In this document: piece by piece, positions 25,176-43,447 of the stretch
Numbering within the stretch: the first letter of the stretch is position 1
How the letters are laid out: each line of letters opens with the position of its first letter
Assembly (NCBI GenBank): GCA_947629175.1
Contig: CANRCT010000009.1
Coordinates: 1 to 64,000 of the forward strand
DNA length: 64,000 nucleotides
DNA from: an uncultured Muribaculaceae bacterium
GTDB lineage: Bacteria; Bacteroidota; Bacteroidia; Bacteroidales; Muribaculaceae
Direction: 5' to 3'
Program-made: the position numbers and the translations under genes
The notes under the pieces: generated by a model
What the model was told of the DNA's origin: nothing
The model's database searches: none
Seen by the model: only the letters and a program-made list of their open reading frames with translations

Positions 25176-25190
25176 ACAACAAATTGTTGT
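25176..25190. repeat. 15-bp palindrome upstream of the signalling operon
   Basis: ACAACAA-a-TTGTTGT, perfect 7-bp arms around one base, 72 bp before the -7 element at 25262. It could be an operator for a dimeric regulator. Confidence 0.35.
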
Positions 25191-25261
25191 TTTGGCACCC
25201 GCAATTGACGATGTGGGACTGCTTTTGTTTGACGCATTAGCGTTGGTTCAAGTAATTTTAC

Positions 25262-25269
25262 TAATTTTG
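25262..25269 (+). promoter_or_regulatory. -7 element of the kinase/AAA+ operon
   Basis: TAATTTTG with a loosely spaced TTGG about 17-19 bp upstream. The first gene starts at 25367, giving a leader of about 90 nt that contains a second palindrome. The 270-bp gap between folE and this gene holds no coding sequence that I can support. Confidence 0.45.
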
Positions 25270-25295
25270 TGATTAGTATGGAACGGGTGGTTCTG

Positions 25296-25310
25296 TTATG
25301 AATTTCATAA
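25296..25310. repeat. 15-bp palindrome in the leader of the signalling operon
   Basis: TTATGAA-t-TTCATAA, perfect 7-bp arms around one base, between the -7 element and the first start codon. Possible repressor site or short RNA hairpin. Confidence 0.35.
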
Positions 25311-25366
25311 TAGAGTCAAAGCTTTGTCTCAGACTACTTTTAACCTAATACCGCAAATACAGTAAT

Positions 25367-26500
25367 ATGTACAAGCGCACTATCACACTACTTATATTGG
25401 CAGCGCTTTCGCTGGCATATTGCAATGCCAAGGAATACTGCACTGTAGCCGATCAAGAACTATGCCTTAGAAACCGACCCGGCAATCACACCAAAATCAC
25501 GCACAGGCTCGGCAAGTCCGCCCAGCTTGAATATGCCGGGCACGAAGGATTCTGGGCCAAGGTGGTATTCAAGGGCGATACGTGCTATGCCCGACTCAAC
25601 TCGCTTTCATTCAGCGAAGATGTAGCCGCCACATTGCCCGCGTGGGTTAATATCGACGAGACCCACGGCAAGTGGGGCAGTTTGGGATATTATTTCTCCA
25701 CCGACCGCATAATGGAGGCGCTTCCCAATTTCAATATTCTTAAAGATAGAACTTTGCTGCCTCCCGACAGATGCTTCCGGATAGCAGTGTGGCTGTTTGT
25801 CATCCTATATGTCTCCTTCCTGTTTCTCAAGGGTAACATACAGTTCGGGAATGTATGGTTCTGGCTGTATTATCTTGGCGTGATGGCTCTTGGTGTATTG
25901 GAGATATTGTATGTATTCGGCAGTCCGGATCCGCTTGGCTTTTGTGACATCAACAATGTATGGTGGCCAAAGGCATGGTTGTATGTGTTTCTGATAGCAT
26001 TCGGCCTTTTCGGTCAGATGAAGCTTACGAACTATATCCTGTTTGTCGTACAATCCGACAGAGACTATGACTATAAGGCAGGATGGTGGACAAAAATCCC
26101 GTTGTTTGGCGTGCTCTATTTCATTATATGGGTAGTCGGATATTATTTTGATTTCAGATATCCTCCTTTAGCTAATATTATAGCCGGACTGGTGCTCTGT
26201 CTTCCGGTTGTGGCAATGCTTATACGGAGTTTCATCAATCTGGATGTCGTGTCACTTCTTGTAGCGGCACCGTTTTATTTAGTAACTCTGGCAGCCATAC
26301 TTGCACTCTATTGTCTTGTAGGGATGGCAATCGCGGTGCTCACTTTTATTGATTTGGTGCTGATGTTCTGCGGCGAAAACGAATATTACGGTAAGATTGG
26401 CGGTCAGTGGTATAAGATGAACTATGCATATTTCTCCGAGCACAGATTAGAGATAACTGATGATTTCGTGGTGACCCCCTTTGACAGGTTTCTGGAATGA
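25367..26500 (+). CDS. SH3-like domain membrane protein, function unknown
   Basis: A 377-residue protein, first gene of the long operon. A signal-anchor segment (about 5-20) is followed by a bacterial SH3-like domain (about 23-85; LCLRNRPGNHTKI, HEGFWAKVVFKGD, CYARLNSLSF). Then come about six to seven hydrophobic segments between residues 140 and 330, rich in Trp and Tyr, and a short soluble tail. I do not recognise the membrane part. The SH3-like domain would face the periplasm, where such domains often bind cell wall or peptides, so it could be a sensor component. Another operon member (38042-39397) also has an SH3-like periplasmic stretch next to membrane helices. Confidence 0.7.
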   Translation: MYKRTITLLILAALSLAYCNAKEYCTVADQELCLRNRPGNHTKITHRLGKSAQLEYAGHEGFWAKVVFKGDTCYARLNSLSFSEDVAATLPAWVNIDETHGKWGSLGYYFSTDRIMEALPNFNILKDRTLLPPDRCFRIAVWLFVILYVSFLFLKGNIQFGNVWFWLYYLGVMALGVLEILYVFGSPDPLGFCDINNVWWPKAWLYVFLIAFGLFGQMKLTNYILFVVQSDRDYDYKAGWWTKIPLFGVLYFIIWVVGYYFDFRYPPLANIIAGLVLCLPVVAMLIRSFINLDVVSLLVAAPFYLVTLAAILALYCLVGMAIAVLTFIDLVLMFCGENEYYGKIGGQWYKMNYAYFSEHRLEITDDFVVTPFDRFLE

Positions 26501-26519
26501 AATAATCTGAGAAACCGAT

Positions 26520-27569
26520 ATGGAGAGAGAAATGCTTTTTTACACCTACGGGATGTGCACGATGTTCTATGCAATGATGGCATGGTTCTTCTGGCGCCGT
26601 GGCACCGACACTCTTTCAAGGTTAGTGATGGTGTTGATGGTGATAGTAAGCGTATCACTTATCAAAGACCTTTTCTTTCTCAATAATGAAATCAGCGGCA
26701 AGGACTGGAACTGGATTCTTATGACCTCCATGGACATGGTCGCCGAACCGTTATATGCCTTCATCCTGATTGAATTGTGTCGCCCCGGGCACCTCACTTA
26801 TAAGACGATGGCACTCCATGAGGCTCCGTTCGTCCTGCTTCCGGGTCTGCTTTGGGCAACCCATATCGAGGTTTTCTATGACATTCTTGTTGTATGGTCG
26901 GCTGTCTATGGTCTGTACTATGCCGTGTGGGCGTTGATGACTATTCCTAAGTATCATATGATGCTGAGGGAACGATTCTCCTACGATGAAAACATAAACC
27001 TGAATTGGCTGAGCACAATTTTAGGTTCGTTCTTTATTATCTTGACACTTTGGGTGGTGGACAGTCTGATAGTCAATATATATCTGGAATGTGTGTATCT
27101 GATAGGTGCCATGATAATATGGATGTTCATCTTATCCTTTATTTATCGTCATGAATCCGTCATTTCCGAACTCGCCGTTGCTGAAGCGCCAAGTAATGAA
27201 CCGGTAAGAGATGTCAACTCAGAAACTGATGAAATGGGGATTCGCATCGAACATCTGATGTTGGTGCAACGGGCATATCTCATACCCACATTAAAGATAT
27301 CCGATGTGGCCAGACAAATTGGAAGCAATCGCACATATGTCAGCAACTGGTTTAACCACAGCCGGCAGGCCACTTTTTTCAGCTATGTGAATCATCTTCG
27401 CATAAAACATGCCTGCGAGCTGTTGAATACCACCGACATGCCGCCCAAAGCCATAGCACAGGAAAGCGGATTTAACTCCAGATCATCTTTCTACCGGATT
27501 TTCAAGAATCTCAAGAGCTGTACACCGAATGAATACCGGGATAATCCTGAAAAATATGATAATGCCTGA
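26520..27569 (+). CDS. Membrane-embedded AraC-type transcriptional regulator
   Basis: A 349-residue protein whose N-terminal 215 residues contain about six hydrophobic helices (starting FYTYGMCTMFYAMMAWFFW). A short acidic linker and a C-terminal AraC helix-turn-helix domain (about 245-345) follow, with LKISDVARQIGSNRTYVSNW and AIAQESGFNSRSSFYRIFKN. The arrangement suggests a one-component regulator that senses a membrane or extracellular signal and binds DNA while membrane-bound. It is 19 bp downstream of the SH3/membrane gene and 11 bp upstream of the next, so it probably autoregulates the operon; the palindromes at 25176 and 25296 are candidate sites (inference). Confidence 0.8.
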   Translation: MEREMLFYTYGMCTMFYAMMAWFFWRRGTDTLSRLVMVLMVIVSVSLIKDLFFLNNEISGKDWNWILMTSMDMVAEPLYAFILIELCRPGHLTYKTMALHEAPFVLLPGLLWATHIEVFYDILVVWSAVYGLYYAVWALMTIPKYHMMLRERFSYDENINLNWLSTILGSFFIILTLWVVDSLIVNIYLECVYLIGAMIIWMFILSFIYRHESVISELAVAEAPSNEPVRDVNSETDEMGIRIEHLMLVQRAYLIPTLKISDVARQIGSNRTYVSNWFNHSRQATFFSYVNHLRIKHACELLNTTDMPPKAIAQESGFNSRSSFYRIFKNLKSCTPNEYRDNPEKYDNA

Positions 27570-27580
27570 AAACAGACTTT

Positions 27581-28147
27581 ATGGATAAAACAATAATGAA
27601 ACTGGCCACCATTTTCAGCAAAATGGTCGGTAACTATAACTCGATGGGTGACAGCTGGAAGAACATCGAGCTCGGACGCGAGGCCTTCGGTCTGATGATG
27701 TCTTTGCCCGATAATTATCCCGGAGAGTACGAGACTTCTGCCGATAAAGCCAATCTCCTCAGCCATATGCTCGACCAGATGGCAGAGACAGAGTCGCCTC
27801 GCTTCTGCATAACTGTACGTGAAGAAATAGCACGGCTGAATCCCGGAGATTCCGCAAACGAAAAAGCGCTTTGTATGCTGCGTGACTATATTGACACATC
27901 CCTTACTATGGAGGATTTCTGTAAGCGCTACAGACGGCGTCTGAAGTTTGACCCTGTTGAGCGGAGCGAAGAGTATGAGCGGGTCATTCCTGAAGTAGAA
28001 CGTAAGATAGCGAAGAGACTGAAAGGCCTCCCACGCGGGATGGGCTTCTGCTTCGCATATTGGTCGGCGAAAAAGGCAGAACTGGCTAAAAGAGCAATCG
28101 AATGGAATTCTCCCGCATATATGAACCCCGGAGTAATGTTTGACTGA
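27581..28147 (+). CDS. Hypothetical helical protein in the signalling operon
   Basis: A 188-residue soluble protein, predicted mainly alpha-helical and charged, with no signal peptide or known motif. It begins with METs at residues 1 and 6 and ends with a basic helical segment (RKIAKRLKGLPRGMGF). I do not recognise it. It is 11 bp after the membrane AraC gene and 16 bp before the zinc-ribbon gene, so it is co-transcribed with the kinase cassette. Confidence 0.6.
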   Translation: MDKTIMKLATIFSKMVGNYNSMGDSWKNIELGREAFGLMMSLPDNYPGEYETSADKANLLSHMLDQMAETESPRFCITVREEIARLNPGDSANEKALCMLRDYIDTSLTMEDFCKRYRRRLKFDPVERSEEYERVIPEVERKIAKRLKGLPRGMGFCFAYWSAKKAELAKRAIEWNSPAYMNPGVMFD

Positions 28148-28163
28148 GATAAGACCAACCACT

Positions 28164-28994
28164 ATGGAACTTCATAAAGATAAATCCCGATATCAGGAAA
28201 AACGGAATCAGCAGGAGACGTCCGGTTTCCGTCGCTATCGTCCGGCCAATATAATCGACAGATACGACGGTCGGTGTACGTTCTGCGGTGCTCCTGTAGA
28301 ACCCGGCATGCGCTTCTGCACCGAGTGCGGCAACAATCGAGAAGGCATAACATGTCCGCATTGCGGAACGCTCAATTACCGCAGTTTTTGTAAGAATTGC
28401 TTCGCGCCGCTCAACGAGCAGGCGCAGAAAGCCTTGACGGAAGCTAAATTCGATCCGCATTTCCAGCGCGCTGAGCAGCTTGTCAGGGAGATGGCGGAGC
28501 TGGAGAAGATAATAAGCGAAGCCGGAGCCGCCGATCAATACAATGAGGCACCCGACCGGAGTGTGAGGCTTAGCGACGAAGACCGGCAGATAATTGATGC
28601 CTATAGAGACCTCTTTGCCGGGATCGCCAATCCTCCGGCGCCATCGGCTCCTGCGGATGATCCGGCTCTAGCTGTCCGAACCCGTGAGCGAAAACAGTTC
28701 CTGATACAGAAGGCCGAGGATGCCATGAAGCTATACAAAGCTAAGATGGCTGAACTTCAGATGCACATGGACTCCATGTTGCCCGATTCGGCTGCCACTC
28801 CCGAGGAGCAGCGCGATTTCTTCAGTGCTCGAATTATTACCACTACCAGAATAGAACTTGTGAAGCAGGGATGGGTATGCAATTACTGCGGTTGCTTCCA
28901 CAAATGTCCTAATGAATGTGCCGAGCCCCAGCTTGGTGGCAAATGGATATTCTTCGAGAAGGAAGTGGAGACAAAACAATCTATAATTGACTGA
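28164..28994 (+). CDS. Multi-zinc-ribbon protein
   Basis: A 276-residue soluble protein with two N-terminal zinc ribbons: Cys38/41/52/55 (RCTFCGAPV, FCTECGNN) and Cys64/67/76/79 (CPHCG, CKNC). The middle is helical and charged, with a probable coiled coil around 190-225, and a third cysteine cluster lies near the C terminus (WVCNYCGCFHKCPNEC). Such ribbons usually mediate protein-protein contacts in double-zinc-ribbon signalling proteins. I chose ATG 28164; a TTG at 28140 would overlap the preceding gene. It is 7 bp before the kinase gene, and similar ribbons occur in the AAA+ and FHA proteins of this operon. Confidence 0.75.
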   Translation: MELHKDKSRYQEKRNQQETSGFRRYRPANIIDRYDGRCTFCGAPVEPGMRFCTECGNNREGITCPHCGTLNYRSFCKNCFAPLNEQAQKALTEAKFDPHFQRAEQLVREMAELEKIISEAGAADQYNEAPDRSVRLSDEDRQIIDAYRDLFAGIANPPAPSAPADDPALAVRTRERKQFLIQKAEDAMKLYKAKMAELQMHMDSMLPDSAATPEEQRDFFSARIITTTRIELVKQGWVCNYCGCFHKCPNECAEPQLGGKWIFFEKEVETKQSIID

Positions 28995-29001
28995 GATCGA
29001 T

Positions 29002-32000
29002 ATGAGCAATAACAACTGGGGCGCCTCGCCGCAAAAGAGCGACACCGCAACGCTTAATCGTCAGAAATGGGGAGATGCACCTCCTCAAAAAAGCGATACC
29101 TCCCGAACTGCAGGATCAGGATGGGGTAATGGCGGACCACAGAAAAGCGATACAGGCACTGCGGGTGTTGCCCCAGGGGCTCCGCAGCGCTATGAAGTGC
29201 CCCTTTATTCGGTTTTTGTGCTTAACAAAGTGATGTACCGCAATGTGCGTGTCATCTATGAAGAGTCGGGCGAAGCCAAGATTTTCGAGGTAGAGGCTGA
29301 CGGGAAGCGCTATGCTTTGAAAATATACCGATATGGCATCCGTCCGGATCATGAAGTGCTTGACCGAATTATGAAGCTGCGAGGCAACGGACTGCTGGTT
29401 GACATATATGACCATGGCACATGGCATGACGATCAGCAGGGCGTCGACTTTGATTATGAGGTGATGCAGTTCTGTTCGGGCGGCTCACTTGCCACCTTAC
29501 AGCTTGAAGGCAATGAGGCGCAATTGAAGGAGATCGCTCTGAAGATGACGGCAGCCATAGATTTTCTGCATCGAAAAGGTATGGTCCATCGCGATGTTAA
29601 GCCTGCCAATTTCATGTTTACCGATGAGGCACGGACGAAATTCGTGCTTACCGACTGGGGCTTCGCCAAGATTCTCGACAAGGAGGGCAGGGCTGTCAGC
29701 GATGATGGCCGGACCAAAATTTACACAGCCCCGGAACTATATATCAACATCCCCGGGCAAGCGACTTATGTCGATGCCAGGGTAGATTTTTATTCGCTGG
29801 GCATGTCGTTGCTTGCTCTGTGGCGAGGTGAGGGACTGCTCATTGCCGACGAGCAGAAACTGGTTCGTCAGAAACTCGACGAGGAATTGCCTTACCCAAG
29901 CCGCAAGGAGATGAGCGAGCATATGCTTTCGCTTATCAAGGCCTTGACGCGCAACAGCCCGGAGAAACGCGCCGGTTTTGATGACATCAAACGCTGGGCA
30001 TCGGGTGAGATCATCTACCATGATACGGCATCTGATGACGAGCTCAATGATTACAGGATTGTCTTCAGCGGTGAAAAGAATCTTATCGCCCACAGTCACG
30101 AGGAGCTCGGTGCAATGATGTGGGACAATCAGGAGCTTGCGAAGAAATATCTCTACAGCGACAGGATAGCCGACTGGCTTGAAGACGCCGGACGCCCCGA
30201 AATGGCATTGAGAATGCGCGAGATAACCGAGATGGAGTATCCGTCGAATACAGATACCGGATTGTATGCGGCCTGTCTTGAACTGGTTCCCGACATGCCG
30301 TTCTACGGCGTGAAGGGCGACGCAGTTTCAACACAGGGGCAACTGGCGAAGGAACTTTTAACCAACGCAGCCTTCTATAAGAATGCTGTTGGCAGCGATG
30401 AGGAAAAGATCTGGGCATACTGCCGAGCTGTAGGTCTTGGTAGCGAGATAAAACACCTTGCCGCCAAGGGCGCAAGCAAGAAAGCATCGCTGATTTTTGA
30501 GTTGGCGTTCAGACTTGACAAGACGCTTCCTTATCCAGTCCCGGTCAAGAATAATGGGAAAGTATGCAGAAATGTGCGAAACCTTACGGAATATCTGGAG
30601 GCTTTCAAGTCGGCCGACAGTATCTATCTCTTCTATCAGTCAAGATGTGACTTCCTGCGGTGGCTTGAGAATGTTGACCCGGTGATGTGCGGTCGCGCCA
30701 GAACCATACTTTCAAAAAATGACGGGAACGTGGATCGCAATGCTCTGGTGCATTATGCCATTCTGCCCGGCGTCGGATTTGACAATGAACCGCTCGATAA
30801 GTCAGAGTTGTCGACACCTGAAAAGATAGCGGAATTCATTGCCCGGCAGGAATGTCTGCGTGTTGAGACAGGTGAATATGTCGAGCTGGTTGACTGGAGA
30901 AAATTCAAGGGTTCCATGCTTGAAGCATACCTGCTCTCAAAAGAGAAATACCAAAAACAGATCAGCTATGCCAACTATTGCATGGAGCTTGACTCGGCGG
31001 ACAACAAGAAGAAGGCAGCGCCTTATGGAGCCGAGACAGCCGGGTTGAAGATTCTTGCCGGATGGCATGGGAGTGTGCTGCCCGTCACTCTGCACGGGCA
31101 TACATTTACACGTCCCGATGATCTTGACAAGGTGGATCTTGCCCGGTTTACCGAAAAGGAGCAGAATTTCCTCGTCCACTGGCTTGGACTCTTCTTTCAG
31201 GAAGACCCCAATGCAGACTATAAGGCCAAGTCATATACAGCCCGCACTCTTGAAATGTATGAGTTCATTGACCGCCGTCTTACCGGAAGCTCTTACGTGG
31301 AACGGTGCAACAGGCAGCCGGCGTCGGACATCGATGGCGCTATGTCACGCAACAAACGGGCATGGACAAAGGTGCGCACAGTGCAGATGCTTGCGATTCT
31401 CTTTTGTTTCATTCCGATGCTCTGTGTCTGTGGCGCCATGTGTTATCTCTCGGTCACCACAGGAAGCATACCGTTAGAGGCTGCTATGAAATCCATCGGC
31501 CATGTGACCGCCATTATTCTGGGCATCATCGCGGCCATCTGTTGTGTCGACGGGGGCATTTTCGGAATGGCGCTCGGTGGAATCGTAGCGTATGCGCTCA
31601 CAGAGTTGTTGTTCAAATTCCTCGCCCCGGTAGTGCCGTGGCTTGTCATAGTGCTTTTGCTTCTGGCTGTGGTTTTCTTCGGCCGCAAGATTTTTATTAA
31701 GATCGGCAAACGTTTCGGGACATCCGATTTGACTTTAAGCGAGATTAAACAGCGCCACCGGGCTGGACTTGCTTTCAATACACGTCATATCCTTCTTCCC
31801 GGCAAAGGGCTGGACTATCCGGTTAAAGACATCAACGAGAATACATCCTATGCCAATTCGCATATGTCTGGCCTGATTAAAAACGCTCTGCTGATGCTGG
31901 CGCTGACTGCCGGAGGTGTCTTCCTTTGTGGCTGGGTCGTAAAGAATTATGACAACACCGAAGTCGTGGAGGTCTCGCGGTCGTTTGAAGGAGCTTATAC

Positions 32001-32304
32001 CGGCGATGTACAAGGAACCCCAAGCTCCATAAAGCTTTATCAGAACAAGGATGGCAAATGGGAGGCCGACATGACCATAAATTACAGGTCGGGCAAGACG
32101 CAGCAGGTAATGGTGTCGAAGGAAAAAACGGAGACGCCCGGCTGTTTTTATCTTCCTTCCAATCCGGAAGTGACACTCTGCCTTGAACCTGTGCAGCAGG
32201 CTGATGCCGAAGCCCATACCTTTACAGGAACTTATACAAATTCCAAGGGCAACCGTCGTACCGTCAACTATAAACAAACCGAGACAGCGAATGAAATGCG
32301 ATAA
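29002..32304 (+). CDS. Membrane Ser/Thr protein kinase with N-terminal PQKSDT repeats
   Basis: An 1100-residue eukaryotic-like kinase. Residues 1-60 are low complexity, with three copies of a W-G...PQKSDT unit (Thr at 15, 33 and 51). The kinase domain (about 70-340) has the ATP-binding lysine in YALKIYR (Lys107), HRDVKPANF (catalytic Asp198), DWGFAK (Asp218; DWG replaces DFG) and TAPEL. The middle region (about 350-770) is helical. Several transmembrane helices lie at about 790-910, another near 960, and a C-terminal beta-rich domain of about 110 residues is predicted outside the cytoplasm. The kinase is cytoplasmic and probably phosphorylates the repeats or its operon partners. An FHA protein and a PP2C phosphatase downstream complete a phospho-signalling set. 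ATG 29002 chosen; a TTG at 28987 is the alternative. The 3' end overlaps the AAA+ gene by 14 bp. Confidence 0.88.
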   Translation: MSNNNWGASPQKSDTATLNRQKWGDAPPQKSDTSRTAGSGWGNGGPQKSDTGTAGVAPGAPQRYEVPLYSVFVLNKVMYRNVRVIYEESGEAKIFEVEADGKRYALKIYRYGIRPDHEVLDRIMKLRGNGLLVDIYDHGTWHDDQQGVDFDYEVMQFCSGGSLATLQLEGNEAQLKEIALKMTAAIDFLHRKGMVHRDVKPANFMFTDEARTKFVLTDWGFAKILDKEGRAVSDDGRTKIYTAPELYINIPGQATYVDARVDFYSLGMSLLALWRGEGLLIADEQKLVRQKLDEELPYPSRKEMSEHMLSLIKALTRNSPEKRAGFDDIKRWASGEIIYHDTASDDELNDYRIVFSGEKNLIAHSHEELGAMMWDNQELAKKYLYSDRIADWLEDAGRPEMALRMREITEMEYPSNTDTGLYAACLELVPDMPFYGVKGDAVSTQGQLAKELLTNAAFYKNAVGSDEEKIWAYCRAVGLGSEIKHLAAKGASKKASLIFELAFRLDKTLPYPVPVKNNGKVCRNVRNLTEYLEAFKSADSIYLFYQSRCDFLRWLENVDPVMCGRARTILSKNDGNVDRNALVHYAILPGVGFDNEPLDKSELSTPEKIAEFIARQECLRVETGEYVELVDWRKFKGSMLEAYLLSKEKYQKQISYANYCMELDSADNKKKAAPYGAETAGLKILAGWHGSVLPVTLHGHTFTRPDDLDKVDLARFTEKEQNFLVHWLGLFFQEDPNADYKAKSYTARTLEMYEFIDRRLTGSSYVERCNRQPASDIDGAMSRNKRAWTKVRTVQMLAILFCFIPMLCVCGAMCYLSVTTGSIPLEAAMKSIGHVTAIILGIIAAICCVDGGIFGMALGGIVAYALTELLFKFLAPVVPWLVIVLLLLAVVFFGRKIFIKIGKRFGTSDLTLSEIKQRHRAGLAFNTRHILLPGKGLDYPVKDINENTSYANSHMSGLIKNALLMLALTAGGVFLCGWVVKNYDNTEVVEVSRSFEGAYTGDVQGTPSSIKLYQNKDGKWEADMTINYRSGKTQQVMVSKEKTETPGCFYLPSNPEVTLCLEPVQQADAEAHTFTGTYTNSKGNRRTVNYKQTETANEMR

Positions 32305-35611: not shown

Positions 35612-36096
35612 AGTGCCATAATTGTAAATCAAGCATCGACGACGACAGCTGGTTCTGCGACCAGTGCGGCACGAAAATATATCTCTGCCCCGAATGTCAT
35701 ACGCCCGGCAAGGGGGAAAGGAAGCGCTGCGGCATGTGCGGTTCAAAGCTCGCTCCCGCCGAAGAACTTGCCGGATCAAATACACAGCCTCAGAAGCCTC
35801 AGAGAACTGTAGTAGCGACAAAACTTGTGTGCCGACAGGAGAATATCATACTGGATCTGCATAATGGCGCAGTGCTGGGACGTCTGGAAGGCCCTTATCA
35901 GGCTATGCTTAGCCGGCTTGAATATGTCTCGGCCCGGCATGCCCAGATCTGGGCCGAAGGAGACCGGTGGATTATCAGTGACCTCGGTTCGCGCAACGGC
36001 ACTGCGGTCAATGGACAGTGGTGCTACAATCCGCTCCCGTTTCGTGTCGGTGATACGGTGAGATTAGCTAACTTTTATGATTTTGTTGCAGAATGA
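35608..36096 (+). CDS. Double zinc-ribbon FHA domain protein
   Basis: A 162-residue cytoplasmic adaptor. Two zinc ribbons (Cys3/6/17/20 and Cys27/30/41/44) are followed by a short linker and a forkhead-associated domain (about 70-162) with the phospho-threonine-binding loop residues in SARHAQI and LGSRNGTAVNG. FHA domains bind phosphothreonine peptides, so this protein probably reads marks made by the kinase two genes upstream, perhaps its KSDT repeats. The design resembles known kinase/FHA pairs such as mycobacterial PknG/GarA and T6SS PpkA/Fha. It overlaps its neighbours by 4 bp on both sides. Confidence 0.88.
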   Translation: MKCHNCKSSIDDDSWFCDQCGTKIYLCPECHTPGKGERKRCGMCGSKLAPAEELAGSNTQPQKPQRTVVATKLVCRQENIILDLHNGAVLGRLEGPYQAMLSRLEYVSARHAQIWAEGDRWIISDLGSRNGTAVNGQWCYNPLPFRVGDTVRLANFYDFVAE

Positions 36097-36812
36097 GAAT
36101 CAGATATGAAGCAATAAGTCATGTTGGAGCCGTGCGCTCGCGAAATGAGGACATGGCATATATCGGTGGTCAGACTATCCGTGACGATTCAGATTCATTC
36201 GAGTTCCAGATTCCGGACAAGGGGATGAAATTCGGAGCCATAGTCTGCGACGGTCTGGGCGGCCGTGCCGACGGAGACCGTGCATCCCGAATGGCCTGTG
36301 AACTGTTTGAGTCTTTTGTCGACGACCTTCCCGAAGGACTTGACGCCAACGAGATGATTCAGCATATCAAGAGGTGGTTTCATATTGCCAATGAGTCGAT
36401 CATGACCGCAGCGGCGGGCAATGGCATGGCCACAACCATGACGGGACTATTGCTATATTATGATCAGGCATATCTTGTCAATAGCGGAGATTCGCATGTA
36501 TATCGGTTGCGGCATGAGAATTTCCGACTTCTCACCAAAGACCATTCGGAGCGTGAGCGGCTCAATGATTCTTCAGCCCCCGCGCATCTGATGTACAACT
36601 GTCTTGGAATAGAAGATGCTTTCATCGACGTGACACCTACGCGCATTGTCGAAGGTGACCGCTATGTGATATGTTCCGACGGACTATCCGATTATGTTGA
36701 CGTTGATGAGATTGAACGTCACTCTTCATCGGCGGCAGATCTGCTTCATGACGCTCTGGCGCAGGGTGCTCCCGATAATGTGACGCTGATCGTGATCGAT
36801 TTTATGGCATGA
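36093..36812 (+). CDS. PP2C-family Ser/Thr protein phosphatase
   Basis: A 239-residue PPM/PP2C phosphatase with the metal-binding and structural motifs intact: SRNEDM (about 13-18), VCDGLGGRADGD (about 52-63), MATTMTGLL, NSGDSHVYRL, SDGLSDYV and the terminal DNVTLIVIDF. No transmembrane segment is seen, so it is cytoplasmic. It should reverse phosphorylation by the operon's kinase. It starts in a 4-bp overlap with the FHA gene, the usual arrangement for bacterial kinase/phosphatase switches. Confidence 0.93.
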   Translation: MRIRYEAISHVGAVRSRNEDMAYIGGQTIRDDSDSFEFQIPDKGMKFGAIVCDGLGGRADGDRASRMACELFESFVDDLPEGLDANEMIQHIKRWFHIANESIMTAAAGNGMATTMTGLLLYYDQAYLVNSGDSHVYRLRHENFRLLTKDHSERERLNDSSAPAHLMYNCLGIEDAFIDVTPTRIVEGDRYVICSDGLSDYVDVDEIERHSSSAADLLHDALAQGAPDNVTLIVIDFMA

Positions 36813-36836
36813 ACCCTTATAGTGCTTTTCATCAGT

Positions 36837-38027
36837 ATGGCTTATTTCAGACACAGTAACAGAATTGCGGTCATCGTGATTTTCTCCATGATAATATTGA
36901 TGCTTGTATGCATTTGCTTTATCATGTGGTTCCGTACCGGCGAGGAAGCTTCAGTAGGCATTTTCTCTCTGGCTGTAACTTTGCTCGGAACGATTTTCAT
37001 CGCCGTCGAGCTTAAAAACGGCCAGAATGTGACGTGCAGCGATATGCTCATCGATTTGAACAACTATTTCCATGACAGCGACAGATTGATGAAGGTCTAT
37101 GAGGCGCTGGAAACAAAAGTAGACAATCCCGAGGATTGTGCCATCGTATGGGATGGCGTGAGGGATGTAGAGATTGCGCAGTATGCCACGTTCTTTGAGA
37201 ATCTTTATCTGCTTTACCGCAACGAGGTGGCTTCGATAGAGGATCTCGACGACCTTTTCGGTTACCGGTTCTTCATATTCATGAATAATCCCTATATTCA
37301 GGAGAACTATATTCTTCCCACCTCTTCCTCATATGTACAGCTGTTCAAATTGTATGAGGTATGGATCAAATTCCGGAAACGCAAGGATACGGAATGGCAC
37401 AACCACATGCCCTATGCCTGTTTTGCCTACACTGAACAGTATCTTAAAGACAGACTCTTCCTCAAAGACGAGTCTTTCAACCATGATGCCGTCTGCTGCG
37501 ACTTATCGTGCAAAGGGAGGACGGTTAAGCTGAGGTCTTTACGGTTCAAGGATGTATGGGACATTATCCGGCTACAGGATGAAATTAAGGAAAGTACGGA
37601 TGCTGAAATATATTGTCCGCTAACACGGGAGGAAATTCTGGAGTCATTACATCTGGATATGGTTCTCGGAGCACTTGACGAGGACGAGGAACTGTTAGGC
37701 GTCGCTGTCCTGATCTCAAACCGCAGGTCACCGCGCAATCTTGCCCGGGATTTTCAGAAATCTCCGGGGAGCGTGCTGACATTCGACGCTGTTTTCGTCT
37801 CTCCCCGGTCGCGTGGTCTCGGTATTCAGCGCAAGTTCGTTGATATGGCAAAGCAACTTGCGATTAAAAGCGGGGCCAGATACGTGCTTACCACCGTTTC
37901 TCCATCCAACAGATTCAGTCTTGACAATTTCGAGGCAACCGGTTTCGAAACGGTATCGGAGTATCAGAAATATGGTGGCAAACTTCGCCGTCTGCTCTGT
38001 TATGTTATCCCGCAAATACAATCGTAA
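36837..38027 (+). CDS. Membrane-tethered GNAT-type acetyltransferase-like protein
   Basis: A 396-residue protein with two N-terminal hydrophobic segments (about 10-32 and 42-62), a helical middle (about 65-215) and a C-terminal GNAT-like domain (about 225-390). The acetyl-CoA-binding loop region appears as VFVSPRSRGLGIQRKFVDMA, followed by ARYVLTTVSPSNRFS and a final beta strand. It may acetylate an operon partner or small molecule at the inner membrane. The fusion of a membrane anchor to a GNAT domain inside a kinase operon is unusual. ATG 36837 chosen; a GTG at 36822 is possible. Confidence 0.7.
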   Translation: MAYFRHSNRIAVIVIFSMIILMLVCICFIMWFRTGEEASVGIFSLAVTLLGTIFIAVELKNGQNVTCSDMLIDLNNYFHDSDRLMKVYEALETKVDNPEDCAIVWDGVRDVEIAQYATFFENLYLLYRNEVASIEDLDDLFGYRFFIFMNNPYIQENYILPTSSSYVQLFKLYEVWIKFRKRKDTEWHNHMPYACFAYTEQYLKDRLFLKDESFNHDAVCCDLSCKGRTVKLRSLRFKDVWDIIRLQDEIKESTDAEIYCPLTREEILESLHLDMVLGALDEDEELLGVAVLISNRRSPRNLARDFQKSPGSVLTFDAVFVSPRSRGLGIQRKFVDMAKQLAIKSGARYVLTTVSPSNRFSLDNFEATGFETVSEYQKYGGKLRRLLCYVIPQIQS

Positions 38028-38041
38028 ATATTGCATCAGGA

Positions 38042-39397
38042 ATGAAATTGCCAGAGATACATTCTTTTTTTGACGTGATATTGTTCCCTTTCCGTCTTGT
38101 CTTCAACCTTGATATCCGGTGGAAAGCCGCACTCGGTCTTGGTCTTGTGCTCATCTTGGCAGGAATTCAGTTGAGCATTTTCCCCAAAGACAGCAGGATG
38201 GGCGCCGATAAAGTGGCGATGGCGAGCAACGGTTGGCTGCGGACAGGCATGGTGGATGATAATCTCGACAGTATGCGTGTGCATCGCGGCGATTCCCTGC
38301 GCCTGTTGGGTCGTCAGGGACATCTTCTTTGGGCAGAGACTACCGACGGAAAATATCGGGGATTCGTTTGCGACTCTCTGGTCGAAAACTCGGCTGAAGA
38401 CATCAGGGTTCCAATCCGCCGCAAACTCTCCGGCTATTTTATTTCTCAAAAGAAGTTCGAAAGCCTCATGTCGGATTCGGCAACCACCTTTGGTGAACTG
38501 GAGAACAGTTATATTCATGCTGAATATATAAAGCGCCATGACAAAAAGTTTGTAGGAGAGTTTGGCTTGATGGTAGAAGACTCGCTGGGCAACATAAAGA
38601 GGCCGGTCATTACCTTTAGCGCCGACAGCACCGTCAACGATTACATTCTTCACCGCTTCCGGAGCAATAGCGTCTTGCTCGGACATCCGGTAATTGATAT
38701 TGTATCACCGGTTATCTCAACAAGGGAATTTCAGAAGTTTTCTCCATTTGACAACAATATTTTGCAATGGTTATGGATTATCTTTCCGGGATTCCTGCCG
38801 ATTTATATCATGATACTTCTGTTGTGGGCTCGTCGTCCTCTGTATTTTGTGCCTAATACATTGATTGATCTTGTGCTTGGCGCACTGGTTGTTCTTGGTC
38901 CGCTGGCGTGGGGTGTTATGATGGTGAAGATGGGATTCAGTTCGGTTGGTGTATTTTTAATCACCGGCAGTTCTGTTTTGGTTGGCGCATTTTTGCTTTG
39001 GCTCGACTATTCCAGCATCCGATGCCCCAGATGTAAGCATCTCAGGCACCATGAATTCAAGCAGATGACCAGTGGAAAACCATTTGTTAGACATGGCTAT
39101 ACCGAAAAGGTGACACGTAGGGAAACACTTGAGCATAAGGTCGAAACAACCATTCATAAACCCACGGCCCGCGACACTATGTCTCATAAGTACGAACGTC
39201 ATTTTGGTAAAGAGAAGGTTTATTATGACATATATGAATATTGGGATACCATAAAAGTCAACACCACGCACTTCGAGTGTCCTAAGTGCGGTCATGGTAA
39301 ACAAGAGAGCGCGGAGGAAATTCTCAACCACCGTCAAGAGTATGTGCGCTCTTACAGCAGAGAGGAGAAATTCGATTATACCGAAAAGAAATACTGA
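38042..39397 (+). CDS. Membrane protein with SH3-like periplasmic region and cytoplasmic zinc ribbon
   Basis: A 451-residue protein with one hydrophobic helix near residues 28-48 and a large presumably periplasmic region (about 50-235) that begins with an SH3-like stretch (VHRGDSLRLLGRQGHLLWAE). Three hydrophobic helices follow (about 240-325), then a cytoplasmic C-terminal domain with paired CxxC knuckles (IRCPRCKHL and FECPKCGHG) separated by about 85 charged residues. I do not recognise the family. The zinc knuckle and membrane layout suggest a partner of the kinase or of the first gene of the operon. Its stop overlaps the next start by 1 nt. Confidence 0.65.
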   Translation: MKLPEIHSFFDVILFPFRLVFNLDIRWKAALGLGLVLILAGIQLSIFPKDSRMGADKVAMASNGWLRTGMVDDNLDSMRVHRGDSLRLLGRQGHLLWAETTDGKYRGFVCDSLVENSAEDIRVPIRRKLSGYFISQKKFESLMSDSATTFGELENSYIHAEYIKRHDKKFVGEFGLMVEDSLGNIKRPVITFSADSTVNDYILHRFRSNSVLLGHPVIDIVSPVISTREFQKFSPFDNNILQWLWIIFPGFLPIYIMILLLWARRPLYFVPNTLIDLVLGALVVLGPLAWGVMMVKMGFSSVGVFLITGSSVLVGAFLLWLDYSSIRCPRCKHLRHHEFKQMTSGKPFVRHGYTEKVTRRETLEHKVETTIHKPTARDTMSHKYERHFGKEKVYYDIYEYWDTIKVNTTHFECPKCGHGKQESAEEILNHRQEYVRSYSREEKFDYTEKKY

Positions 39398-39723
39398 TGA
39401 ATAAAACTGAGTTGAGAATTCTTTGGTCGGACTATGACGTCGGTCGTTTCGAGTCAGTTTCCATCAATAACGAAACTGAGATCCGCGATGATGGCATAAG
39501 GAAATGGTTCATCCTCACCAGAGAGCAGAATGACGACAGTGGCTACAACTGCCGTCAGCGGTGGATCGCCCCTCTCGACGATATGCTTCTGGCCTTTGGA
39601 ATGCAAGATTACGCCGAACTCGCCGACTATATCGAGGGCAAATACCTGGATACCAGGAGCGCCATCGGCGACATCAGGGCCGAGGCCGATTCCAAAGGAG
39701 TGAAATTTGAATATACAAGCTGA
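39397..39723 (+). CDS. Small hypothetical protein
   Basis: A 108-residue acidic soluble protein with no signal peptide, rich in Trp and Asp. I do not recognise a family. It shares its first base with the preceding stop codon (TGATG) and is 4 bp from the next gene, so it is translated as part of the operon. Confidence 0.6.
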   Translation: MNKTELRILWSDYDVGRFESVSINNETEIRDDGIRKWFILTREQNDDSGYNCRQRWIAPLDDMLLAFGMQDYAELADYIEGKYLDTRSAIGDIRAEADSKGVKFEYTS

Positions 39724-39727
39724 GAAC

Positions 39728-40516
39728 ATGACTTACTTGATAGAAAAATTTGAAAAGCCCTACCTGGCAGTTACCGTCCGCGACGAGACACGCGATATGT
39801 CTGTGGGGCATATGGAGAAAGAAGACTTTTATCTCTCAACCGACCGGCTGATTCCCGGCGAGAAATTGCCTGTACCCGTCGGTGTTTCTCTTTACGCCGA
39901 CTATACCGTGGTAAAGGTAAGCGATGAGACTATAGAACTGAGCCGCAATGGCTCCGGGTTTGTAATTGAGAAAGATGTCAATCCTGCAGATGGCATTTCG
40001 AGCGGCGGCAGCAACGGTGGGGGAGTCTATGGCAGTTCTTCAGTGATATTTGAATACCGTACGCCGCTTAGCGGGGAGGAAATAGACAAGATTCCGGAGA
40101 TGGCGCTCAATGCGGCTTCTGTCCCCGGGAAAGACTGGCTTGAAAGCTCTAACCGCCATATCGATGTGCTTGATTTTGTCAAACGGGCTGTAAAAGAAGG
40201 AAATATCGGACTTTATGTAGCCTTGGCTCTTCTTACTGCATCGAGTAATTGGGAATATTGCGAAATTTATCGTCCCGGACAGTTCCGCAAGATTTTCACT
40301 GAAGGACTCCGCAAAGGCGCACTTGCCCCTGACGACGATAACCCGGCCTGGAGGTGGATGGATATTGCCATCATGAACAATGACCCCGGCGAGTTTGCCG
40401 ACGACATGGATCTATATTACGACGCCCTCGCCACAGCTGCTGAAAACGGCGTATGGCTCGCCCGCGACATCATGGACATGATATGGGAACCAGAAAACTG
40501 TCAGGAGGAAGATTAA
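39728..40516 (+). CDS. Hypothetical protein with a C-terminal domain duplicated in the next gene
   Basis: A 262-residue soluble protein. An N-terminal beta-rich part (about 1-115) ends in a glycine/serine linker (SSGGSNGGGVYGSS). The C-terminal part (about 140-262) matches the whole of the next protein: compare FTEGLRKGAL with FTEGVRRGCL, DDMDLYYDAL with NDMDLYRRAL, and NGVWLARDIMDMIW with GEWLARDLLHVIF. Function is unknown. ATG 39728 chosen over a TTG at 39707 that overlaps the previous gene. It is 2 bp before its shorter paralog. Confidence 0.6.
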   Translation: MTYLIEKFEKPYLAVTVRDETRDMSVGHMEKEDFYLSTDRLIPGEKLPVPVGVSLYADYTVVKVSDETIELSRNGSGFVIEKDVNPADGISSGGSNGGGVYGSSSVIFEYRTPLSGEEIDKIPEMALNAASVPGKDWLESSNRHIDVLDFVKRAVKEGNIGLYVALALLTASSNWEYCEIYRPGQFRKIFTEGLRKGALAPDDDNPAWRWMDIAIMNNDPGEFADDMDLYYDALATAAENGVWLARDIMDMIWEPENCQEED

Positions 40517-40518
40517 AA

Positions 40519-40968
40519 ATGGATTTACCAAAATATACTGCGTTGCGACAGAAAGTCATCGACATGGCTGGCTGCGGCGGCAGCGACGCTCAGCATGTTA
40601 GTGAAAGCCGCGAAGAAATCATCGGCTATATCGATGCGTTGATAGAACGCGGCGACAAGGGTCTGTATGTGATGAAGGCATTGCTTATGGCATCTGACGA
40701 TTGGGCTACATGCAAGATAGTCAGGAATGAGATGTTTACCGACATGTTTACTGAAGGAGTACGCCGCGGCTGCCTTAATCCAAAGTATATCCACGCATGG
40801 GAATGGATTGAAATCGCGATCAAATACAACCATCCAGGCTCGTTTATGAACGACATGGATCTTTATCGTCGTGCATTGACCGATGCATGGGAGAACGGTG
40901 GCGAATGGCTCGCGCGTGACCTGCTCCATGTTATTTTCGGAACGGGCAACTGTAATAAATGGGATTGA
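40519..40968 (+). CDS. Hypothetical helical protein, paralog of the upstream C-terminal domain
   Basis: A 149-residue soluble protein, mostly alpha-helical, that aligns along its length with residues of about 140-262 of the preceding gene product (GLYVMKALLMASDDWATCKI against GLYVALALLTASSNWEYCEI). It probably arose by tandem duplication of a domain. No catalytic motif is visible. ATG 40519 follows the upstream stop by 2 bp. Confidence 0.6.
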   Translation: MDLPKYTALRQKVIDMAGCGGSDAQHVSESREEIIGYIDALIERGDKGLYVMKALLMASDDWATCKIVRNEMFTDMFTEGVRRGCLNPKYIHAWEWIEIAIKYNHPGSFMNDMDLYRRALTDAWENGGEWLARDLLHVIFGTGNCNKWD

Positions 40969-41017
40969 CAAGTAACGAGATACAGAAAATTTCAGTATAA
41001 AACAATATCAGTATAAT

Positions 41018-42061
41018 ATGAGTTTCTTAGATTTCTTCAAGAAAAAAGCCGATAAAGGGTCGGATAATAAAAACGTTCCGTCGGGCAAAAACATCCCGTC
41101 TGGCAGTTTATCGGGCAAGCAGCATGCAAATACCAGTCTTAACCCGTTGATGCAGAGCTTATATCAGCAAGCCAAACAGCGTGCCCAGGCTTCATCATCG
41201 TCCACCGGTACGCCGAAACGTGTCAGCCGGGACGTAGAAACGGTCAGCGAAGGCATAGGTAGTATCGAGGCGCTTTTCGATATGGAGGGCCATCGTATTC
41301 CCGACATTTTTAACAACAAAGCATACGGCTATGAGGACGAGGATTTCGCATTGTCGATTCCCCGGCCGAAGCCGGATCCGAAAAAAGCCAGGAAACTCTA
41401 TGAGATGGGCACGAAAGAATTTAAACCTTGGCGCGGTGTGGAGTATGAAGAGGAGGAAAGTTGGGGGCAGAATTGCCATCTTTTGTACTGCTCCTATATG
41501 TTCGGTTTCCGCCCGGCGCTCAAAGAGTATCAGAAACTGCGCGAACAGTGCCGGAATCGCTACAGAGAGCTGTGCGGTGTCATTGATGACTATAGCCTTC
41601 TTGCCGGCCTGCGTCATCCGGCCCGTCGTTTCGCGCTGAGCAGTGCCAGCGTCAGCGACCACTTCACCAAAGTGTGGAACTCTCTGTTGGATTCGCCGTA
41701 TGGCAGAGATCTCAGAGAAGACTGGAATTTGTTGGCTGACGCTATGAAACATTACAGAGTTTCAGGGCCGAAAAGTGCTTTTGACGACTATAATAATTAT
41801 CCCATCACCTTAGAGAGCGACCTTGAAAGAATGTGGGCCGGCATCTACAACGAACTGCATGAGTATGTGGATGGCCTTTGCCCCATCGACGCTGATGCTA
41901 TCGATAAGGTCTCAGATGACTACCAACGTGATGACTTCGTGCATACCATGCTTGGTGCATTCGTCGTGACGCTTAATTCACTCAACGCCATGTACGACAA
42001 AGTCTTCGAGGCTGTTTGGGAAAATCCTCTCAACCTCTATTACAACTTCGGTGAACTCTAA
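41018..42061 (+). CDS. Hypothetical protein with disordered N terminus
   Basis: A 347-residue soluble protein. It starts MSFLDFFKKK, an amphipathic basic helix that could touch membrane, followed by a Gly/Ser/Asn-rich disordered segment (about 10-70) and then a helical domain rich in Trp and Tyr. I do not recognise a family. It is 49 bp after the paralog pair on the same strand and probably belongs to the operon. Confidence 0.55.
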   Translation: MSFLDFFKKKADKGSDNKNVPSGKNIPSGSLSGKQHANTSLNPLMQSLYQQAKQRAQASSSSTGTPKRVSRDVETVSEGIGSIEALFDMEGHRIPDIFNNKAYGYEDEDFALSIPRPKPDPKKARKLYEMGTKEFKPWRGVEYEEEESWGQNCHLLYCSYMFGFRPALKEYQKLREQCRNRYRELCGVIDDYSLLAGLRHPARRFALSSASVSDHFTKVWNSLLDSPYGRDLREDWNLLADAMKHYRVSGPKSAFDDYNNYPITLESDLERMWAGIYNELHEYVDGLCPIDADAIDKVSDDYQRDDFVHTMLGAFVVTLNSLNAMYDKVFEAVWENPLNLYYNFGEL

Positions 42062-42108
42062 TGCTCCGTTGGAGCTGTATTTTTTACACTGAATGAGACT
42101 ATAGCGAA

Positions 42109-42756
42109 ATGAAACCTATATATCTGAAGCTTTCAAAGCCATTCGATAAGTTACCGGCGATGGCATCGCGCTTCTGGGGCAATCCCTCACTGCCGGAGGA
42201 CATGGAATGGCCCTGTTATACAGACGATGACGGCGACGAACTCGACTATGTTTTCGTGTGCCAGATTAACCTCAGGGAATTAGCGCCATACGATGCTGAC
42301 CACTTGCTGCCTTCCTCAGGTCTTCTCTTGTTTTTTGCCAGGATTGACCATTATCTCGGACATTTTGAATACGAGTCAGTAGGCGGTTCAATCAGCTCTA
42401 AGGATGCTGTCAGTATAATTTACCTTCCTTCGACCGATGGACTTGTTGAAAAGGTGCTTGTCGATGAGAACGACAATCCCGTCTCGCCCGAAGAATTGCA
42501 GATAGCCTTCACAGATGATTTCGACCCTATACGCGATGAAGACACTTGCCTATTCGCGCGGCCGGATCATCGTCAATGGGAAACATGGGACCATCCCTAC
42601 GAGGACTGGCTTATCCTCCTGCAGGTCGACTCATTTTCAGGGATGGATTTCAACCTCAATTTCATGGATTTCGGAGTGCTTGATTTTCTTATCTCACCGC
42701 TTGATCTCCGGAAAGCGGATTTTAGCGATGTCCGCGCAATAGTCCTCTCATCATGA
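42109..42756 (+). CDS. DUF1963 (YwqG-like) protein
   Basis: A 215-residue soluble protein resembling DUF1963/YwqG, with SRFWGNPSLPEDMEWP near the start, a VCQINLRELAPYD strand, SGLLLFFARIDH and a late LLQVDSFSGMDF. Family members are common in mixed bacterial neighbourhoods with immunity-like or unknown roles. The fit is by pattern memory only. It overlaps the final gene of the operon by 4 bp. Confidence 0.65.
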   Translation: MKPIYLKLSKPFDKLPAMASRFWGNPSLPEDMEWPCYTDDDGDELDYVFVCQINLRELAPYDADHLLPSSGLLLFFARIDHYLGHFEYESVGGSISSKDAVSIIYLPSTDGLVEKVLVDENDNPVSPEELQIAFTDDFDPIRDEDTCLFARPDHRQWETWDHPYEDWLILLQVDSFSGMDFNLNFMDFGVLDFLISPLDLRKADFSDVRAIVLSS

Positions 42757-43292
42757 AGTCGTTGTCAGAACAATTTCAGAGCCTGTTCGAAGAACAGCCC
42801 GACAAAGCGGCAGCCATCGTTCTTGCAGCACCCGAAAGCGAAGAACGCGACGGCTTGCTGCTGATGATGTACTCCGAGGGTATCGGTGTCGGCAAAGACG
42901 ACACCCGGGCGCTTTCCATCGCTGAAAAACTATATGTCATTCCGACAAAATGGGGAGAATACGCCCACCTTTGGCTGGGCGACTACTATATGGACTCGGC
43001 CCGCGGCGATGACACGGACAAGGCCATCGACCATTATCTTGAAATCGGAGACATCAACGGCGAAGCCGCCTGCCGCCTCACCGACATCTTCTGGAACGCA
43101 TGGAGTGACCTCGATGATGAATCCGAGCGACCGGAGGTAGAACATACCTTGTTCTATTACACCCAGCTCGCCGCCGCTTACAATCCGGAATATCTCCTAC
43201 AGTTAGGCTATTGCTACGCTACCCCGATCGGCTGCGCAAAAACAGAATCCAAGGCTCTGGATTGTTTCGAACAGTTTCTCAGACTGACGTAG
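42753..43292 (+). CDS. Small helical-repeat (Sel1/TPR-like) protein
   Basis: A 179-residue acidic soluble protein of helical pairs resembling Sel1/TPR repeats (YSEGIGVGKDDTRALSIAEKL, HLWLGDYYMDSA, LLQLGYCYATPIGCAKTESK). Such repeats act as binding scaffolds. It is the last gene before the terminator at 43339, so it marks the operon end. No enzyme motif is seen. Confidence 0.6.
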   Translation: MKSLSEQFQSLFEEQPDKAAAIVLAAPESEERDGLLLMMYSEGIGVGKDDTRALSIAEKLYVIPTKWGEYAHLWLGDYYMDSARGDDTDKAIDHYLEIGDINGEAACRLTDIFWNAWSDLDDESERPEVEHTLFYYTQLAAAYNPEYLLQLGYCYATPIGCAKTESKALDCFEQFLRLT

Positions 43293-43338
43293 TCCGCTAT
43301 AGAATACCGTCCCATAGTACATCTTAAAAAATAACGAT

Positions 43339-43365
43339 CCCCTCTAACTTATTGAGTTAGAGGGG
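43339..43365. terminator. Bidirectional terminator between the signalling operon and tRNA-Thr
   Basis: CCCCTCTAACT-tattg-AGTTAGAGGGG, a perfect 11-bp stem. On the minus strand it is followed by a T-rich ATCGTTATTTTTT tract, fitting tRNA-Thr transcription; in the plus direction it follows the operon's last stop by 46 bp. Confidence 0.8.
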
Positions 43366-43374
43366 TGCTTTGAG

Positions 43375-43447
43375 AGCCGCGAGTGGGACTCGAACCCACG
43401 ACCTTTTCGTTACGAATGAAATGCTCTACCGACTGAGCTATTGCGGC
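43375..43447 (-). tRNA. tRNA-Thr (anticodon CGT)
   Basis: Acceptor GCCGCAA pairs with TCGCGGC apart from a non-Watson-Crick innermost pair. The D arm is GCTC...GAGC and the T arm GTGGG-TTCGAGT-CCCAC. The anticodon loop TTCGTAA gives anticodon CGT, reading ACG (Thr). The last pair of the anticodon stem is A-C (31-39) instead of A-T. No CCA is encoded. A terminator and a matched promoter flank it. Confidence 0.94.

Follow-up and report, generated by a model that had tools for sequence, protein, structure and literature searches.

Modules that combine a serine/threonine kinase, a PP2C phosphatase and an FHA protein are known from the type VI secretion system (T6SS), where PpkA, PppA and Fha form such a set, and among AAA+ proteins CbbX reads the tail of Rubisco. 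To our knowledge, few Hanks-type kinase circuits are known in Bacteroidota. According to the accessible part of its description, the kinase PknG carries autophosphorylation sites in a disordered N-terminal region, and these recruit the FHA substrate GarA/OdhI (PMC8546545). SpoVK, CbbX and EccA are described, in the part of the source available, as dedicated chaperones with narrow clients (PMC10659427). Here we analysed a stretch of 64,000 nucleotides from an uncultured Muribaculaceae bacterium (contig CANRCT010000009.1, positions 1 to 64,000; this whole stretch is called the window). A block of 16 plus-strand open reading frames (g01 to g16) at 25367-43292, flanked by folE (24495-25097) and tRNA-Thr (43374-43447), contained five genes that recur together elsewhere: g04 (zinc ribbons), g05 (membrane kinase), g06 (AAA+), g07 (FHA) and g08 (PP2C). 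We consider it moderately likely that this set was acquired by lateral transfer and works as a self-contained phospho-signalling module whose output is a dedicated AAA+ remodeller.

The likeness to PknG-GarA/OdhI of Actinobacteria, as far as the accessible description goes, lies in a Ser/Thr kinase with several phospho-Thr sites in an N-terminal extension, which are predicted sites here, and in the FHA partner. Unlike that system, the cassette has its sites in tandem repeats, a membrane-bound kinase and a zinc-ribbon FHA protein, with a PP2C and a tandem AAA+ protein as regular partners. PknG was not among the NCBIfam matches of g05, and the kinase models that did match scored far below their cut-offs. 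By analogy, the cassette would resemble PknG-GarA at the docking step, rather than being a member of that pathway. With PpkA-PppA-Fha it shares the presence of kinase, PP2C and FHA genes in one operon. Pfam found no T6SS structural gene among the 16 genes (the search for T6SS was confined to these genes), and the NCBIfam model of TagH scored 18.7 against a cut-off of 120.25. A role as regulator of T6SS or of type VII secretion was dropped because the operon has no structural genes, in agreement with the initial annotation, which had seen no secretion structural genes there.

The AAA+ protein g06 resembles CbbX, SpoVK and EccA in its CbbX-like domains with AAA_lid_6. The AAA+ proteins of the cassettes differ from these in that one chain joins three to five such domains, the first of them divergent, to a zinc ribbon at the N-terminus; among the 16 genes Pfam found none for Rubisco, sporulation or ESX. 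Another comparison is the triad of vWA protein, kinase and PP2C, which we take to be the one named TerY-P. There, in the part of the description available, a kinase that often has a zinc ribbon adjoins a PP2C (PMC7159879). The cassette has in addition an FHA protein and a CbbX-type AAA+ protein, and one of its sub-lineages adjoins TerB-domain proteins. This triad was dropped as a candidate, since none of the 16 genes gave a vWA match in Pfam. The kinase-kinase-phosphatase (KKP) set of Pf prophages is likewise a mobile kinase/phosphatase module, but it consists of two kinases and a phosphatase, as far as the portion of its description that was available tells. A named defence system was also dropped, because no full PADLOC set was present. 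The earlier statement that no named system has this gene set stood when 10 of the 16 proteins were submitted to each of PADLOC and NCBIfam, and no earlier description of the five-gene set was found in the literature searched, whose coverage mostly excludes subscription journals.

The 16 genes do lie on the same strand, and neighbouring genes overlap or are no more than about 50 bp apart, as first annotated. The Pfam scan of the 16 proteins gave Pkinase, four AAA stretches with three AAA_lid_6, DZR with FHA, PP2C_2, GNAT, an AraC HTH, DUF1963 and a Sel1 match below the cut-off. Together with the presence of the kinase catalytic and PP2C metal-site motifs, this bore out the kinase, PP2C, FHA and AAA+ proteins named as core members. 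Six genes (g01, g03, g11, g12, g13 and g14) had no Pfam match up to E = 1. The view of all 16 genes as one conserved unit had to be given up, as only the five core genes are conserved and the rest are variable.

Recurrence of the neighbourhood was a check set beforehand. Search profiles were built on alignments of the first six cassettes, and one genome per species was scanned. g04 matched at E <= 1e-30 in 16 of 297 same-family genomes and in 7 of the 395 genomes of a phylum sample, five of the 7 outside the class; weaker matches in the phylum sample resembled generic zinc ribbons. When named genomes were scanned, 37 loci were obtained; the titles of 36 place them in Bacteroidetes, several of feces or rumen origin. 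The other one is a Desulfomonile metagenome-assembled genome, whose contig stops just past g04. After removal of 7 duplicates from 64 loci, the order g04-g05-g06-g07-g08 was complete in 38 of the 57 that were left, with L151, L157 and L211 counted as complete since all five genes are present there. A single gene is interposed within the core in a few complete loci, for example L208, L210, L212 and L225. The other 19 loci comprise 11 truncated by the end of a contig or locus, 7 in which no PP2C was detected and one (L153) with a changed order. Two of the loci without PP2C, L139 and L150, end less than 1 kb from the FHA gene; L220 and L037 come from separate contigs of the same genome and may be halves of one cassette; and L147/L148 and L150/L152 are near-copies.

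The core order is kept across many families and in other Bacteroidota classes at about 20-50% identity, and its recurrence indicates that the gene set is more than chance. Accessory genes differ by locus, and those of the window other than g03, g15 and g16 were found in at most four loci. Some cassettes are surrounded by housekeeping genes, such as metA and peptidases. The conserved unit is the five core genes plus a local variable set, and Bacteroidales, several of them from animal guts, share the five-gene set. The AAA_lid_6 family alone was tried as a cassette marker and rejected as too broad, since it occurs in 81 of 392 genomes of the order; among the neighbourhoods fetched from such genomes (a set that leaves out G231, G248, G347 and G359), only L052, L090, L096 and L102 held the cassette.

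The window kinase retains K, HRD, N and the DFG aspartate (as DWG). Across 56 kinase rows, which include the second kinase of L153, the catalytic Asp, the Asn and the DFG Asp are present in all and the VAIK Lys in 55. A tail lies N-terminal of the kinase domain. It was overlooked in the initial annotation, and so were two features described below, the motif copy that some FHA partners carry and the probable lateral transfer. In the window, the tail consists of an 18-residue unit repeated three times, each with PQKSDT, and the units differ by lineage (DKTLRP, KTVRA, GTATAPQ, GTAVPPS, HATGRA, PTPMD). Of 55 tails, 48 had more repeated threonine-centred six-mers than their shuffled versions at p<0.05, and 42 at p<0.01, with the second kinase of L153 left out of the tail counts. 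Threonine ranked first of ten residues for lying inside repeat windows (60% of Thr residues, with Pro at 52% and Ser at 30%). Of 29 control kinases taken from the same order, 21 could be located and 8 could not. None of the 21 showed tandem Thr repeats; 9 of them have a tail, and the other 12 have none of 20 aa and could show no repeats. By hydropathy, the kinase domain is followed by five transmembrane (TM) segments in 34 of the 56 kinase rows, and by five in the sister locus L206; five segments would place the variable C-terminal domain outside.

In the genome of the window, the core kinase is the sole Pkinase match better than 1e-15 (1e-28), a second and partial match (1.2e-12, in a 284-aa frame) lies above the Pfam cut-off, and no FHA match other than g07 reached E <= 0.001. 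Among ten cassette genomes including this one, only G044 has a single Pkinase match, while G871 has 16 and G936 has 12; a single FHA match was found in five of the ten. These counts suggest that the phospho-circuit could be nearly closed in this genome and less private in other cassette genomes. With one strong kinase match and one FHA match, the search for substrates and targets here could meet little cross-talk. The initial description of a self-contained, phospho-controlled remodelling system fits well with these counts and with the recurrence of the core.

The phosphothreonine (pThr)-binding residues of the FHA domain are conserved in the alignment: Arg92 and Ser108 are kept in all 45 rows that cover the region, and His in 44. 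When every predicted non-kinase protein of each locus was scanned for that locus's own tail motif, 9 of 40 FHA proteins matched at 5 of 6 letters, compared with 1 of 608 other proteins (Fisher 5e-11). The truncated FHA protein of L214 was left out of the analysis. At 4 of 6 letters the figures were 17 of 40 and 63 of 608, and the FHA proteins of L135 and L139 matched at this level only. Own-locus matches exceeded matches to the motifs of other loci (2% of pairs; 0 of 20,000 permutations, in which the relatedness of loci stays in place). In four cassettes from other Bacteroidota classes the FHA protein has DKTVRI, DATVRV, EKTVRI or EKTIRV at its C-terminus, and in others the copy sits elsewhere, outside the FHA domain. 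The nine carriers at 5 of 6 letters occupy five separate places on the kinase tree, which leaves out three short or second kinase rows. These places were read from the drawn tree; a computed result of a single change, which compares just two labelled groups and had L135 and L139 among the carriers, was set aside.

Pfam found in g06 four AAA stretches and three AAA_lid_6 (PF17866, 1.6e-30), the combination of AAA core and AAA_lid_6 that marks the CbbX/SpoVK/EccA clade. In the first of its AAA domains the Walker A motif is altered (GNPGTGKK), and domains 2-4 are canonical. Complete orthologues have a zinc ribbon, a divergent first domain and two to four further AAA domains, and FIDEAY, the Walker B of the other domains, was seen in no divergent first domain. 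g06 scored above the cut-offs of the NCBIfam equivalogs SpoVK (581.6 against 422.95), EccA (486.6 against 466.65) and CbbX (476.7 against 459.25), but each score sums four stretches and the three names are incompatible. CbbX and EccA1 were the only solved structures that matched g06 at 1e-10. The AAA proteins of L221, L223 and L225 are about 1390 aa long with five AAA domains, and those of other sub-lineages have three or four. A separate CbbX-like protein lies outside the cassette (G000:C7:76253-77122, in a 646-aa frame), and several relatives have one of similar length. In g08 of the window and in all five aligned PP2C proteins, the metal-site motifs are retained.

We propose the following circuit. 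The TM bundle and the C-terminal domain of the membrane kinase g05 would together perceive a signal, as the predicted topology allows, and the active kinase would phosphorylate several threonines of its own repeat tail, as the repeats suggest. The FHA adaptor g07 would then dock on the pThr sites of the tail. In some relatives the FHA protein may itself be phosphorylated on its motif copy, which would close or release it as in GarA/OdhI. Through their zinc ribbons, g07, g04 or both would relay the state to g06. The three canonical AAA domains of g06 may remodel a dedicated client, with the divergent first domain as a regulator or docking part. The PP2C g08 would reset the circuit, and accessory genes would provide local inputs and clients. 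Such a module would join phospho-signalling to a AAA+ chaperone clade with few known clients, in a compact five-gene circuit apparently passed between genera.

One candidate client is the product of g03, the commonest accessory gene. It is predicted to be all-helical (mean pLDDT 87.9) except for the last seven residues. The C-terminal MNPxVxFD (28121-28144 in the window) is among its most conserved parts and was found in 27 of 30 g03-family loci (L265-L294), at the very end in 26; the exception, L269, is a neighbouring-frame match. A conserved but floppy end of this kind suggests a peptide that some partner reads. That the reader is the AAA+ protein is speculation. A g03 relative was present in 10 of 16 family genomes with the cassette, in at least three of the 10 on another contig, compared with 23 of 281 without it, when the two 297-genome family samples are taken as the same genomes. 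Members of the family that end in MNPxVxFD also occur in genomes without the cassette.

A more specific version of this circuit is doubtful in our view: the tandem pThr tail may act as a multivalent platform that gathers many FHA/zinc-ribbon adaptors at the membrane, together with a covalently linked AAA+ remodeller; kinase motif and adaptor site may drift together into a private phospho-code for each cassette; and the client may be marked by a C-terminal tag such as MNPxVMFD of g03, which would be recognised in the way that CbbX recognises the tail of Rubisco. A co-drift of the tail motif with the FHA-partner site would be a testable rule for private phospho-wiring.

Several observations weigh against the proposed module. 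Seven of the 55 tails have no significant repeats, and residues other than Thr repeat too, with Pro not far behind. Hydropathy gives four TM segments in the window kinase, which leaves the side of its C-terminal domain ambiguous. The FHA protein of the window lacks the tail motif of its kinase, also when 4 of 6 letters suffice, and at 5 of 6 the motif is missing from 31 of the 40 FHA proteins. Matches at 4 of 6 are frequent among AAA proteins too (16 of 50), and the permutations do not remove the relatedness of loci. More than one Pkinase match was found in nine of the ten cassette genomes and at least two FHA matches in five. Five Prevotella loci (L147, L148, L150, L152 and L158) have no PP2C, and their kinases have lost the DFG glycine and APE; therefore, the circuit must differ there. 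L142, and perhaps L139 near a contig end, has no PP2C yet an intact kinase, and the intact kinase of L142 indicates that loss of the PP2C and loss of the kinase motifs are not strictly tied. Phosphorylation, binding, ATPase activity and the contact between g07 and g06 are all putative, read from sequence.

The PP2C-less Prevotella kinases form one lineage on the tree, with a tail containing PTPMD or PTPVD and with the FHA Asn replaced by His. Joint loss of all phospho parts in this lineage was considered and rejected, since the tail threonines and the FHA Arg and Ser persist. L147, L148, L150 and L152 also have a second AAA protein and an upstream protein of family c12 (DUF4062/AAA in L148).

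We also considered whether the set is an envelope or nutrient homeostasis switch, in which, by analogy to SpoVK-MurG or EccA, the AAA+ protein activates a specific envelope or metabolic enzyme on kinase firing. Such a switch would be in keeping with the variable C-terminal domain and the four to five predicted TM segments of most kinases, and with the membrane and SH3 accessory genes. The AAA+ kin belong to a dedicated-chaperone clade, some members of which act on envelope synthesis (PMC10659427, in its accessible part), and PknG-OdhI governs metabolism (PMC8546545, likewise in part). No envelope-synthesis gene, however, recurred among the clustered neighbours, and the sporadic distribution of the block speaks against a core function. 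We regard this explanation as unlikely.

An anti-phage or other conflict system, in which the kinase module senses infection and the AAA+ or accessory proteins are effectors, appears improbable to us. The block is sporadic and apparently laterally moved, which would suit defence. In PADLOC 2.0 the kinase domain matched mad6 (3.2e-29) and PD-T4-6 (2.9e-21) and the AAA protein matched IetA (8.9e-22), but these matches span only kinase or AAA domains, a few further matches were weak, and no full system set appeared with the 10 of 16 proteins submitted. Among the cassette neighbours, 66 of 124 of which were covered by the PADLOC scan, single proteins matched HEC-01A (2.2e-124), PDC-M13B (2.5e-64), AriA, mad3, AbiLi and PDC-M10A, one protein each. 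When 30 of the 66 were rescanned singly at 1e-15, none of these gave a PADLOC match. Among 25 of the 80 PADLOC families, those listed, none matched more than one of the 66, so that no recurrent defence partner emerged. One sub-lineage adjoins a DUF4062/AAA protein and another adjoins M48/TerB proteins, whereas several cassettes lie among housekeeping genes. Pfam recognised no nuclease, NADase or pore domain in the 16 genes, kinase residues 331-796 were unmatched in phages and plasmids, and no g04 relative was found in viral contigs. The neighbour matches in PADLOC and the second Pkinase match led us to weight defence slightly up and the proposed mechanism slightly down. The role in stress or defence suggested initially is possible and has no direct support, though single neighbours match candidate defence proteins.

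Chance co-transcription of unrelated genes, or a strain-specific island without joint function, would suit the variation of most accessory genes between loci, but it is contradicted by the five-gene order kept at such low identity across many families and other classes, and we give it hardly any weight.

The laterally transferred origin of the proposed module is indicated by the surroundings of the block. In the congener G005 (AroC 85% identical), one contig of the draft genome has folE, 278 unmatched bases and then the same tRNA-Thr, with the 18-kb sequence corresponding to window positions 25103-43373 missing. The contig of G012 ends too early to judge, and no tRNA adjoins folE in the four other congeners fetched. 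G1007, which belongs to another genus, carries the operon beside tRNA-Thr(CGT) at 84% DNA identity across a block of 12.9 kb, without g10, g11 and g14; AroC, the only marker compared, is 65% and 53% identical over two segments. G009, of the same genus as the window, has a quite different cassette. The empty site in a congener and the DNA identity in another genus would be best explained by lateral transfer.

No clear trace of a vehicle was found. At the block ends only two 9-mers were found as att-like direct repeats, the 3' end of the tRNA is not repeated in the window over more than 10 bases, and Pfam found no integrase among the 16 genes. Phages and plasmids gave no match to kinase residues 331-796, and the 14 stretches of viral contigs that fit the g04 pattern included no g04 relative. 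Carriage as phage or plasmid cargo was dropped, since no kinase or g04 relative was found in phage, plasmid or viral sequence. A general link to tRNA genes was also dropped: among 52 loci only L206 has tRNA-Thr, and six others have another tRNA. At L253, folE and tRNA-Thr stand together without the block in one congener, and neither a vehicle nor a target duplication was found there.

The features of the block are collected in Table 1.

Table 1. Positions in the window of the 16 genes of the block and of the elements at its edges
Feature	Position	Strand	Basis and occurrence
Candidate promoter element TAATTTTG, TAnnTTTG type	25262..25269	+	also present in two closest relatives
g01, TM protein, SH3-like according to the initial annotation; accessory	25367..26500	+	no Pfam match; 3 loci
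g02, membrane protein with C-terminal AraC-type HTH; accessory regulator	26520..27569	+	HTH_18 2.8e-19; 4 loci
g03, predicted all-helical, with conserved, predicted-disordered C-terminus MNPxVMFD; commonest accessory gene	27581..28147	+	17 loci
g04, core; double zinc ribbon and conserved C-terminal Cys/His domain	28164..28994	+	Pfam, alignment
g05, core; Ser/Thr kinase, N-tail of Thr repeats, 4-5 TM segments (predicted), C-terminal domain	29002..32304	+	
Thr-repeat tail of g05, 18-residue repeat x3 (WG....PQKSDT; Thr15, Thr33, Thr51)	29002..29205	+	p = 0.036, window alone
g06, core; N-terminal zinc ribbon, divergent first AAA, three canonical CbbX/SpoVK-type AAA	32294..35611	+	
g07, core; double zinc ribbon and FHA domain	35608..36096	+	
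g08, core; PP2C phosphatase	36093..36812	+	
g09, TM and GNAT; accessory	36837..38027	+	4 loci
g10, TM protein with C-terminal zinc-ribbon cysteines; accessory	38042..39397	+	zinc-ribbon matches below cut-offs; not found in sister operon L206
g11, no Pfam family; accessory	39397..39723	+	not found in L206
g12, no Pfam family, paralogue of g13; accessory	39728..40516	+	cluster 22
g13, no Pfam family, paralogue of g12; accessory	40519..40968	+	cluster 22
g14, no Pfam family; accessory	41018..42061	+	not found in L206
g15, DUF1963; accessory	42109..42756	+	13 loci
g16, weak Sel1-repeat protein; accessory	42753..43292	+	7 loci
Hairpin, probable terminator of tRNA-Thr	43339..43365	-	
tRNA-Thr(CGT), 3' end adjoins the block	43374..43447	-	boundary compared with empty site

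Two details at the edges of the block differ from the initial annotation. It had placed two palindromes in the promoter, but the two best found by eye each lose one half in the two closest relatives. An element that we take to be a promoter of the TAnnTTTG type reads TAATTTTG / TAACTTTG / TAATTTTG in the window and these two relatives. It had also ended the operon in a strong terminator. At 43339-43365 an 11-bp hairpin scores as terminator-like, but only when read on the minus strand, and therefore it probably serves tRNA-Thr rather than the operon.

Among the accessory genes, g12 and g13 (39728-40968) are tandem paralogues without a Pfam match. Upstream of the core in other loci, the families c8 and c9 recur in five loci each among L143, L145, L149, L151, L156 and L157. 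Their members in L156 are M48-peptidase/TerB and TerB/TPR proteins, a hint of a Ter-type link.

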